NCBI GenBank assembly: GCA_902586925.1
Contig: CACIJE010000004.1
Location: 1-41,230 of the forward strand
DNA length: 41,230 nt
DNA from: an uncultured SAR86 cluster bacterium
GTDB taxonomy: Bacteria > Pseudomonadota > Gammaproteobacteria > Magnimaribacterales > D2472
Direction: 5' to 3'
Shown here: positions 38,052-41,230 of the stretch, piece by piece
How the letters are laid out: each line of letters starts with the position of its first letter
Position numbering within the stretch: position 1 is the first letter of the stretch
Program-made: the position numbers and the translations under genes
Notes under the pieces: model-generated
Database searches by the model: none
What the model was told of the DNA's origin: nothing
What the model saw: only the letters and a program-made list of their open reading frames with translations

Positions 38052-40250
38052 ATGCAGCTAAAACATATAAAACTATCAGGTTTTAAAAGCTTCGTTGATC
38101 CAACGAAGATTTCTTTCCCTACAAATATGGTTGGAGTTGTTGGCCCAAATGGTTGCGGTAAATCTAATGTAATTGATGCTGTTAGATGGGTCTTAGGAGA
38201 ACTGTCTGCAAAGAATTTGAGAGGTGAGTCTATGGTTGATGTCATCTTTAATGGCTCTGAAAAAAGAAAAGCATCAGGTCAGTGTAGCATTGAACTTTTA
38301 TTTGATAATTCACTTGGAAAGATTAGTGGTGAATATGTTTCATTTAATGAAGTTTCAATTAAAAGAGTAATGACAAGAGATGCTCAATCTGATTACTACA
38401 TAAATAATACAAAGTGTCGAAGGAAAGATGTTCAAGATATATTTCTTGGAACAGGACTTGGTCCAAGTTCATATGCAATCATTGAGCAGGGCATGGTAAG
38501 TAAACTTGTAAGTGCAAAACCAGATGAACTTCGCACTCACATTGAGGAAGCAGCTGGTGTTTCTAAATACAAAGAGAGAAGAAAAGAAACAGAATCAAGA
38601 ATTAAAAGAACAAAAGAAAATTTATCAAGAGTGAAAGATATTAAAGACGAAATTGGAAGAATGATTAAAAGATTAGAAAATCAAGCAAAGGCTGCCGAAA
38701 AATATAATTCACTTAAAGAAAAAAAAGCAGAGTTAGAACTTGATAAGGCAATATTATTTTCTATCGAAGCAAAAACAAGAAGAGATATTCTTCAAAAAAA
38801 ATTAGATTCGTTAAATAGAGATCTTAAAATTAAAAATGCTGAGTCTGATACTACCCAAGCTCAAATAGATAAATTTAGAACAGAAAATGAATCTACTTTA
38901 AATGAATATGAAATTGCTCAAAAGAATTTTTATGCCATTGGAGCTGAAATAGCAAAGAGAGAAGCCAATCTCCTCAATATTAATAAAAACGAACAAGATA
39001 CAAAATTAGATCTTGAAAAAGTAAAGCAAAGTTACGAGAAAGCTAAGGAAACTGAAAAGAACTTTGATGAGTTAAGTCCAAGAGAGAAAGCAATGCATAT
39101 TTTAGATGATATTATTCAAATAATTGAAAAATATGCCATTAATAATGAAAGTATTCTTCAAAAAGCAAAAAAGCTTAAAAGTTTACTAATTGACATATTA
39201 AATATTGCAACTAAACAATCAAAAACATTAACAGATGAGTATCTTTCAAGACAAAATGAACTTGAAAAGCAAATAATAAGTGACGAAAATCAAAAGAATT
39301 CCATTGAAAATGAAATGAAAGATTTTGCAGAAAAAAGTTCAAATGCTGAATCTATTCTTATATCTTTAAGACAAAAACAATCAAAATTTAATGAACAACT
39401 AAGAGACTTTGAAAATAAAAAATCAATATCAGATATTGACGCAAGAACGATTTCTGAAAAAATTACCAACATAAGAATTGAACAAAAAACATATGAAATT
39501 AATTTAGATAACTCGAATAAAAAACTTGAGCAAGCTGGTATTGACATAGAAACCGTAGATTTTTCAAATTATGAAAATAAAAATACTGAGGATCTTGAAA
39601 ATAAATTAACCGAACTTGAAACTAAAATAATTAAATTAGGAGCCATTAATCTGGCTGCTCCAGAGGAAATTCAAGAAGAGACTAAAAGAAAAGAGGAGTT
39701 AGATAAACAATATGATGATTTAACAGAGGCTCTAGATAAGCTTAGTGCAGCAATACAAAAGATTGATAAAGAAACTAAGACTATTTTTAAAGAAAGTTTT
39801 GATTCAGTAAATTCAAAACTTAAAGAAATGTTCCCAAAATTGTTTGGTGGAGGTGTGGCTGAACTTACTATGACTGATGATGATGCACTTAATGCTGGCG
39901 TAATTTTGATGGCAAGACCACCAGGCAAGAAAAATTCATCAATATCTCAATTGTCTGGAGGTGAAAAAGCTCTTACAGCATTAGCTTTAGTTTTTGCATT
40001 TTTCGAATTAAATCCCGCGCCTTTTTGTTTACTTGATGAAGTTGATGCTCCGTTAGATGATTTAAACACATTAAGATTTATTGATATGGTTGAAGAAATG
40101 TCAAAGAATGTCCAATTTATTTTTATAACACATAATAAAGTTTCTATGGAAAGAAGTGATCATCTCATGGGAGTAACAATGCAAGAAGCTGGTGTTTCAA
40201 GAATGGTATCAGTAGATGTAAATCAAGCTTTAGAATTAGCTGAATCATAG
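38052..40250 (+). CDS. smc: Short SMC protein lacking a hinge domain
   Basis: A 732-residue chromosome-segregation ATPase; canonical bacterial SMC is about 1150-1200 residues. The N-terminal head is intact: FKSFVDPTKISFP, Walker A GPNGCGKSN (31-39) and GPSSYAIIEQGMVS. The C-terminal head is intact: LFGGGVAELTM, signature LSGGEKALTA (634-643) and Walker B FCLLDEVDAPLDD (658-670), followed by FIFITHNKVSME. Head sequences are typical of gammaproteobacterial SMC. Between residues about 170 and 525 only coiled coil is visible, interrupted by a less regular helical stretch at 341-397 (SPREKAMHILDDIIQIIEKY region). No Gly-rich SMC hinge is recognisable. The arms are about half normal length. zipA begins directly after the stop codon. 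Confidence 0.88.
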   Translation: MQLKHIKLSGFKSFVDPTKISFPTNMVGVVGPNGCGKSNVIDAVRWVLGELSAKNLRGESMVDVIFNGSEKRKASGQCSIELLFDNSLGKISGEYVSFNEVSIKRVMTRDAQSDYYINNTKCRRKDVQDIFLGTGLGPSSYAIIEQGMVSKLVSAKPDELRTHIEEAAGVSKYKERRKETESRIKRTKENLSRVKDIKDEIGRMIKRLENQAKAAEKYNSLKEKKAELELDKAILFSIEAKTRRDILQKKLDSLNRDLKIKNAESDTTQAQIDKFRTENESTLNEYEIAQKNFYAIGAEIAKREANLLNINKNEQDTKLDLEKVKQSYEKAKETEKNFDELSPREKAMHILDDIIQIIEKYAINNESILQKAKKLKSLLIDILNIATKQSKTLTDEYLSRQNELEKQIISDENQKNSIENEMKDFAEKSSNAESILISLRQKQSKFNEQLRDFENKKSISDIDARTISEKITNIRIEQKTYEINLDNSNKKLEQAGIDIETVDFSNYENKNTEDLENKLTELETKIIKLGAINLAAPEEIQEETKRKEELDKQYDDLTEALDKLSAAIQKIDKETKTIFKESFDSVNSKLKEMFPKLFGGGVAELTMTDDDALNAGVILMARPPGKKNSSISQLSGGEKALTALALVFAFFELNPAPFCLLDEVDAPLDDLNTLRFIDMVEEMSKNVQFIFITHNKVSMERSDHLMGVTMQEAGVSRMVSVDVNQALELAES

Positions 40251-40874
40251 ATGACTACAAACTCAGAAATATATTTAATTGGACTGTCAGTATTAATATT
40301 TTTAATAATTGTTTTTCTATTTATAAGAAAGATTTCTAATGAAGGCAAATTAAAGCTTAAGATTGAAAAAGTATCCGACTTGAATGATTCATATGTTTCT
40401 CAAGAAATTCCAGAAAAACAAGAATCTTTTAGTTTTAATAAAGAGGTTTTTGAAGAACAGGAATTAGTAATTTTCAATTTGATATCTATGGATAGATCTG
40501 TGTTTGATATGACCCAAATGTTTGGCTTTCTCTCAAATCTTGGTGCTATAAATACTAATAACTATTTTGCATTTTATGAAAATGAGGTCGAAAAATTTAG
40601 ATTAATCAATGCCTTAAAACCTGGAACATTTCAGGAAAATACTCAAACATTTGCAGTCGCAATTGTAGCCGATTTATACTCTAGTTTGGATCCATATAAT
40701 ACTGTGAAACAAATGATTGAATTTGCAGTTACTTTTTCAGATAAATTTCATGCAACATTATGTGATCAAAATCGAACACCTATTACTAAACAAATGATAT
40801 CTCATGTTGAATCAAAAGCTCAAGATATTGCAAGATTAAAACAATTAAATAAAAACGAAACTATAGGAGCATAA
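40251..40874 (+). CDS. zipA: Cell division protein ZipA
   Basis: A 207-residue ZipA-like protein. An N-terminal membrane anchor (about 8-27, IGLSVLIFLIIVFLFIRK) is followed by a short linker and a C-terminal FtsZ-binding domain (from about residue 70, ELVIFNLISMDRSVFDMTQM, NALKPGTFQENTQTFAVAIVADL). The usual Pro/Gln-rich linker of E. coli ZipA is much reduced. Its place directly after smc is the conserved gammaproteobacterial order. The ligase gene follows after 4 bp. Confidence 0.85.
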   Translation: MTTNSEIYLIGLSVLIFLIIVFLFIRKISNEGKLKLKIEKVSDLNDSYVSQEIPEKQESFSFNKEVFEEQELVIFNLISMDRSVFDMTQMFGFLSNLGAINTNNYFAFYENEVEKFRLINALKPGTFQENTQTFAVAIVADLYSSLDPYNTVKQMIEFAVTFSDKFHATLCDQNRTPITKQMISHVESKAQDIARLKQLNKNETIGA

Positions 40875-40878
40875 TCCT

Positions 40879-41230
40879 ATGATAATTAAACCTTGGGAGA
40901 TTGTTAAAGAACTTGAAAGTAACAACAGTAGGTTATTTAAAGAAAGTGTTATTGAAAAGGTCTTAGAAAATAAAACTATCCAAAAAGGTCTATCAATGTG
41001 TCTCGATCCTCTTGTTACATTTGGTGTTAAGCAGATTCCTGAATGTGAAAATGACGGCCCTGGTCTTGACTGGGATGAATTTCAAAATGCTGCTGAGTCA
41101 TTAATTAAAAGAGATAAAACTGGCCATGCAGCTAGAGATCTTATAATAAAATTAATTGATTCTTCATCTATTATTCAATGGAATGATTGGTACAGAAGAA
41201 TTTTGATCAAAGACCTTAGATGTGGAGTTA
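40879..41230 (+). CDS. ATP-dependent DNA ligase, T4/marine-phage-like, N-terminal part (partial)
   Basis: The first 117 codons of a gene that runs off the window. The visible sequence matches the N-terminal DNA-binding domain of phage-type ATP-dependent DNA ligases, especially those of T4-like marine phages: DPLVTFGVKQIPE, GPGLDWDEFQNAAESLIKRD, TGHAARDLIIKL and WYRRILIKDLRCGV. The adenylation motif KxDG would lie beyond the window. It has a Shine-Dalgarno AGGAG (40865-40869) and starts 4 bp after zipA. In most gammaproteobacteria this slot after smc-zipA holds NAD-dependent ligA. No LigA motif is visible here. Confidence 0.78.
   Translation, partial: MIIKPWEIVKELESNNSRLFKESVIEKVLENKTIQKGLSMCLDPLVTFGVKQIPECENDGPGLDWDEFQNAAESLIKRDKTGHAARDLIIKLIDSSSIIQWNDWYRRILIKDLRCGV

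Follow-up and report, generated by a model that had tools for sequence, protein, structure and literature searches.

SAR86 is an abundant clade of free-living ocean bacteria. At the end of one SAR86 contig, the gene after zipA begins an ATP-dependent DNA ligase where the NAD-dependent ligase LigA would be expected, and an initial annotation proposed that the essential enzyme had been replaced in situ by a phage enzyme. According to the available text of a 2016 review, functional NAD ligases occur in all bacteria, and their genes are essential there (PMC5052709). Has LigA been displaced at this locus, and by what? We conclude that, in part of the SAR86 family, a viral-type ATP ligase has very probably displaced LigA in its own slot and become the sole ligase of the cell. 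The two ligases occupy the same slot and exclude each other almost perfectly, each tested genome with the ATP type has one such ligase, and the enzyme has conserved catalytic residues and is under purifying selection.

The ligase gene and its complete relatives

The window, the whole stretch of DNA analysed here, is an entire contig (G000:C4, 41230 b) from a 1.18 Mb genome that is 94.6% complete. The ligase ORF starts with ATG and encodes 117 amino acids without a stop codon before the window ends (Table 1). The upstream zipA gene ends 4 nt before the ATG, and the AGGAG motif lies 9 nt upstream of it, in agreement with the ribosome binding site noticed in the initial annotation; the three protein motifs quoted there are likewise all present in the ORF. 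The fragment matched PHROG 114 (ATP-dependent DNA ligase) with an E-value of 8.6e-12; Pfam gave nothing at E-values of 1 or below, because the fragment covers the N-terminal part only. The catalytic lysine would fall past the contig end, and the assembly of the window genome lacks the catalytic part. A profile search of this 94.6% complete genome found no PF01653, a domain of NAD-dependent ligases, and the same search was positive in 11 of 14 control genomes; PF01068 was not found either, the ligase gene being truncated at the contig end. The window genome as assembled shows no complete ligase and no LigA. As a separate observation, the Smc protein of the window has only 732 residues, in which SMC_N was matched and the SMC hinge domain was not. 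No Pfam match to the hinge was obtained in any of the nine Smc proteins tested from the order (732–996 aa); their length varies by lineage, with 995 aa in genus g17, and a typical Smc has about 1150–1200 residues.

Table 1. Features of the ligase slot at the end of the window.
Feature	Position	Strand	Evidence
smc (732 aa), next gene upstream, in conserved order	38052..40250	+	PF02463, E 4.8e-58; synteny
zipA, upstream flank of the ligase slot	40251..40874	+	PF04354 (ZipA_C), 46 bits, E 5.8e-12
AGGAG, likely ribosome binding site of the ligase, within the zipA 3' end	40865..40869	+	sequence
ATP-dependent DNA ligase, N-terminal domain only	40879..41230 (ORF 40879-41229)	+	ORF, PHROG 114, homologues in 26/60 genomes

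Homologues of the fragment were found in 26 of the 60 genomes searched, the window genome included (E 9e-78 to 9e-47), and most of them are complete frames of about 428 amino acids. The three complete relatives tested (L056, L080, L058) all contain PF01068 and PF14743 and show DNA-binding, nucleotidyltransferase and OB domains with a full-length profile match; two complete copies matched PHROG 114 with E-values of 4.8e-91 and 8.8e-95. None of the NAD-ligase domains (Ia, PF01653, HhH, BRCT) was found in these three proteins, and the NAD-type LigA of the SAR86 genome G026 carries Ia, PF01653, OB, HhH and BRCT. Fifteen motif residues do not vary across any of the 40 aligned rows, which come from SAR86, viral contigs, alphaproteobacteria, Prochlorococcus and a Marinimicrobia bin. 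These residues include K162, D164, G165, R167, D208-E210, E306, K311, K327, K329, R413 and R416 (numbering of the G011 protein), which we take to be nucleotidyltransferase motifs I, III, IV, V and VI, with K162 as the motif-I catalytic lysine. Omega was 0.035–0.096 in 10 of 11 close ligase pairs, similar to smc, and the eleventh pair was saturated.

A structure model of the G011 protein built from 40 rows reached a pLDDT of 89.6; an earlier model from 11 SAR86 rows (pLDDT 45.6) was set aside. Foldseek matched the model, in order, to Pmar-Lig of Prochlorococcus marinus (49% identity), a Rhizobium phage ligase and T4 ligase (6DT1). The TM-score to Pmar-Lig was only 0.57 with an rmsd of 9.8, which we read as a probable rearrangement of domains within a shared fold. 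The SAR86 ligase would be powered by ATP because it belongs to PHROG 114 and the family of the Pmar-Lig and T4 enzymes, and its motif-I lysine would be adenylylated from ATP.

Gene-for-gene exchange and mutual exclusion

The order smc-zipA-ligase-SLT lipoprotein recurs in 25 loci with the ATP ligase and 15 with LigA, the flanking genes being smc, zipA, an SLT transglycosylase lipoprotein gene and an M16 peptidase gene. LigA lies in this very slot in all 35 LigA loci examined. The distance from zipA to the ATP ligase is -14 to 18 nt in 36 loci, except for 412 nt at one split copy, and that from zipA to LigA is -14 to 11 nt, as measurable in 32 of the 35 loci. The downstream gene overlaps the ATP ligase by 1–95 nt in 35 loci (the window reaches no such gene) and lies between -74 and +5 nt of LigA in its 35 loci. 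The junctions are without room for a remnant or a phage gene. Because the junctions are similar, the flanks shared and no spare room exists, the change between LigA and the ATP ligase is a gene-for-gene exchange in place, and the in-situ replacement proposed in the initial annotation holds; the gene order also recurs in related genomes. The split copy belongs to G016 (AG-422-O05, L078, around 6415), where the ligase is frameshifted into 140 and 289 amino acids and no other ligase was found in the genome; this is probably a sequencing error.

The gene at the contig end could have suggested a viral contig wrongly joined or binned with a SAR86 contig. This artefact is extremely improbable: the zipA-ligase junction recurs in 36 loci, cellular genes come next in 35 of the 35 loci that extend beyond the ligase, and the sources comprise single cells, MAGs and a complete chromosome. 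A prophage passenger was also considered and ruled out, since the flanks are smc, zipA, the SLT lipoprotein and M16 peptidase genes with no adjoining phage genes; a prophage just beyond the window was looked for and not found, with cellular genes on both sides in all 25 ATP-ligase loci first examined.

Across 107 genomes of the family, 43 have the ATP ligase, 48 have PF01653, one has both (G141) and 17 have neither, one of the latter (G002) being 90% complete. The exclusion is significant by Fisher's test with relatedness ignored (p 9e-15). The 19 genomes at least 90% complete divide into 11 with the ATP ligase, 7 with the NAD ligase and 1 with neither (G002). PF01068 gave exactly one match in each of 10 ATP-ligase genomes of this completeness, PF01653 was absent from the same ten, and PF01068 was absent from all nine LigA genomes tested. 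No PF01653 was detected in the complete chromosome CP097973 (G060) or in SAR86A (G061), nor LigA in the one-contig ATP-ligase genomes G034 and G135. Among 13 further relatives with the ligase, PF01653 was absent in 12, and the thirteenth has the same cut-off match as G141. The G141 exception is an NAD-ligase-like ORF of 184 amino acids, cut at the locus end, beside a groEL-like ORF and outside the slot. In other families of the order, PF01653 was found in 24 of 24 genomes searched, with a weak split match only in G036, and LigA is for this reason regarded as ancestral in the order.

These counts bear on whether the ATP ligase might be an accessory repair enzyme beside an unassembled LigA, an arrangement known from many other bacteria. 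Two observations could have favoured such a role: the window genome, 94.6% complete, has a contig break inside the gene, and in Prochlorococcus, according to the accessible text, Pmar-Lig is additional to the replicative NAD enzyme (PMC6698739). An accessory ligase is nevertheless very improbable, as LigA holds this very slot in the 35 LigA loci, a full-length PF01653 frame occurs in 0 of the 43 ATP-ligase genomes, including the one-contig G034 and G135, CP097973 has none, and closed genomes contradict it. A LigA gene elsewhere, against which the initial annotation had set its proposal, was absent from the window genome, G034, G135 and CP097973, with the cut-off ORF of G141 as the exception among the 43. 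Judging from sequence, the ATP ligase most likely acts as the cell's replicative ligase, because its catalytic residues are invariant, selection is purifying and the ten near-complete genomes contain no other ligase. It would then seal Okazaki and repair nicks in LigA's stead. A link between the switch and the NAD cycle was tried and rejected: in 46 of the 107 genomes, some with each ligase state, PF02464 (PncC/CinA) scored 18.9–27.7 bits; 19 of these matches slightly exceed Pfam's cut-off of 23.5, and we see in them no clear PncC and no association with the ligase state.

Viral kinship and spread within SAR86

A first ligase tree contained 34 SAR86 rows longer than 400 amino acids, 27 of the best 80 viral loci and 13 cellular rows, and left out the window fragment and the split G016 copy. 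The 34 SAR86 ligases form one clade (support 100/99) within a clade that holds 13 viral contigs (100/99). Outside SAR86, the closest sequences come from IMG/VR viral contigs; among the best 80 of at least 528 loci, identity reaches 63%, and 25 of these 80 lie at 55–63%. Other cellular matches are 47–55% identical, those at 55% being a partial Prochlorococcus match and a contig from a Pacearchaeota bin that falls with viral contigs in the tree. In a second tree of 14 SAR86 rows, 63 viral contigs, five phage isolates and 13 cellular rows, rooted on the isolates, SAR86 shares a clade (SH-aLRT 100) with 46 viral rows. Neighbouring genes were scanned in part on six viral contigs. On the SAR86 side of the tree, L178 carries a T4-type gp32 gene about 4 kb from the ligase, L165 and L171 carry HNH endonucleases and L180 a RuvC-like resolvase; in other clades, L187 carries a tail-fibre gene, and two neighbouring proteins scanned on L204 matched nothing. 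The resemblance to T4-like phages proposed in the initial annotation stands as kinship with viral contigs, one of them with gp32. It does not extend to close isolates: the top-ranked isolated phages are 33.6% identical to the full protein among the best 60 of 1661 records, all below 60%, and 34.6% identical to the 117-residue fragment. Among solved structures the best match is Pmar-Lig, with T4 ligase lower but still matched.

A position of SAR86 within the viral clade has support of 98/90 and 95/73 in the first tree and 97 in the second, but is not claimed here, because AU tests allow the alternative: viral relatives as one clade beside SAR86 were not rejected (p 0.368 and p 0.676), and at p 0.676 the tree with one viral clade even scored better. 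Of the phage origin proposed in the initial annotation, the viral kinship holds, and the AU tests are compatible with either direction of transfer. The same result would fit the reverse direction, in which viruses captured a cellular ligase of the SAR86 type that was not viral in origin. We consider this unlikely, given that LigA is ancestral in the order, with PF01653 in the 24 genomes of other families (weak and split in G036), and that viral rows surround the Prochlorococcus copies and also occur among the outer branches of the tree. Transfer from virus to SAR86 is the direction that we favour, because of the ancestral LigA; the first copy of the ligase might have come from a bacteriophage and taken LigA's chromosomal slot between zipA and the SLT gene.

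The distribution of the two states within the family is uneven. Genus g1 has 25 ATP-ligase genomes, 2 with the NAD ligase and 7 with none, g2 has 1 with the ATP ligase, g15 has 1 ATP, 3 NAD and 1 none, g16 has 1 ATP, 5 NAD and 1 none, and g17 has 14 ATP, 2 NAD, 1 with both and 1 none; genera g3, g12, g13, g14 and g18 have only the NAD ligase (35) or none (7). The number of state changes is 5 on the ThrS tree (3 forced), 8 on the zipA tree (4 forced), 5 on the SLT gene tree (2 forced) and 6, all forced, on the tree of the combined thrS, smc and M16 flanks, which has 57 rows and excludes genomes whose ligase state is unknown, as well as G005 and G019, where smc is cut. Every marker used in these counts is linked to the slot, and the only genome-wide reference for them is the genus labels.

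Such changes could also mean that SAR86 started out with the ATP ligase and acquired LigA anew on several occasions, instead of a repeated spread of the ATP ligase. We regard regain as rather unlikely. It would explain why the LigA genome G026 nests among ATP-ligase g1 genomes on the thrS+smc+M16 tree, but on the ThrS tree G024 and G026 form an outer branch of g1, with the inner group supported at only 81/97. LigA sequences follow the genera, as vertical descent predicts, and the ligase of G129, a g15 genome, groups with g17. This ligase is 88% identical to those of the g17 genomes G147 and G149, whereas its zipA is 50–51% identical to theirs vs 64–67% to its own genus, and its SLT protein 74–75% vs 84–88%. 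Since zipA and the SLT protein are nearer its own genus, the ligase alone has evidently moved between SAR86 genera in G129, as the protein identities show. A comparable, less clear-cut example is G135 (g16), whose ligase is 67–72% identical to the other SAR86 ligases compared and whose smc reaches 55–64%. In the repeated spread that we prefer, later copies may have been exchanged by homologous recombination within the two flanking genes, zipA upstream and the SLT gene downstream.

Known ligases, other lineages and implications

Pmar-Lig (PDB 6RAU, 6RAS, 6RAR) belongs to the same family over its full length (phmmer 438.7 bits, residues 7–429) but is the additional ligase mentioned above (PMC6698739), and the SAR86 and Prochlorococcus ligases form separate clades, each with viral contigs. 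T4 gp30-type phage ligases share PHROG 114 (4.8e-91) and the fold of 6DT1; they differ in the 33.6% identity of the top-ranked isolates (best 60 of 1661), and the SAR86 copy is chromosomal, in the ligA slot. The available text on Babela massiliensis and TM6 describes a bacterial lineage like SAR86 in this respect, with no NAD-dependent ligase and an ATP-dependent one instead (PMC4378268), although Babela is a parasite of amoebae, that text mentions neither gene position nor a viral origin, and SAR86 has swapped one gene for the other at a single site. In nucleo-cytoplasmic large DNA viruses, NAD and ATP ligases are reported, in the portion of the source available, as complementary, with the NAD type repeatedly displaced by the ATP type; these are viruses of eukaryotes for which the authors favour ligase-less intermediates (PMC2806865), whereas SAR86 swaps the same chromosomal slot. 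LigE and phage-borne minimal ligases, as described in the accessible text, are ATP-dependent bacterial enzymes with a proposed phage origin and the OB domain PF14743, which the SAR86 enzyme shares, but they have 250–370 residues and are non-essential, LigE with a predicted export signal (PMC8455567); the SAR86 enzyme has about 428 residues and an N-terminal DNA-binding part. In the open-access literature, we found no report linking SAR86 with an ATP-dependent DNA ligase and no precedent for an in-place swap of LigA. The enzyme family and, from Babela and TM6, the cofactor switch are known; what would be new is the displacement of a core replication enzyme, in place and with lateral spread, by one of viral type.

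Beyond SAR86, PF01653 was absent from all seven alphaproteobacterial genomes with a homologous ligase. In the family of one of them, it occurred in 1 of 32 genomes of unstated completeness, and 27 of the 32 matched the ligase profile, 22 in full length, 2 cut but strong and 3 weakly; the weak matches lie in frames of 526–544 amino acids that are probably another ligase type. G165 of this family has both ligases. Full LigA is also present in a Marinimicrobia bin and a Proteobacteria bin with the ligase (G078, G082). At the alphaproteobacterial loci, an ORF of 242–246 amino acids lies directly 5' of the ligase (L132 5280-6014, L147 5274-6014, L151 5276-6004, L163 5270-5998), with weak similarity in L132 to Cas4/PD-(D/E)XK nucleases, below the cut-off. 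The 2.0 Mb Rickettsiales MED657 bin (L151/G077) holds three full-length ligase copies, two with equal score, and is probably a mixed bin. Five Prochlorococcus single cells (L246, L247, L248, L250, L251) contain PF01653 ORFs of about 250 amino acids whose resemblance to an NAD ligase is confined to its N-terminal and adenylation parts, and full LigA was not found in any of the five, which are genomes of unstated completeness. An NAD ligase is named for the genus in the available text of the literature (PMC6698739), and the short ORFs are a lead towards a possible loss of LigA.

Viral ligases might have displaced LigA independently in several streamlined ocean lineages, namely SAR86, the alphaproteobacterial family (ligase in 24 of 32 genomes) and perhaps Prochlorococcus, with the SAR86 slot as a repeatedly switched, laterally exchanged allele; we hold this broader proposal to be evenly balanced between true and false. 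If true, selection would act again and again on a core function of replication, driven for instance by cofactor economy or by phages. The SAR86 slot has switched state more than once, and both states occur within single genera. Such natural matched pairs may help to address the purpose of LigA's extra domains and of its NAD use, and how an essential gene is displaced, and the slot could offer a view of viral replication enzymes turning cellular.
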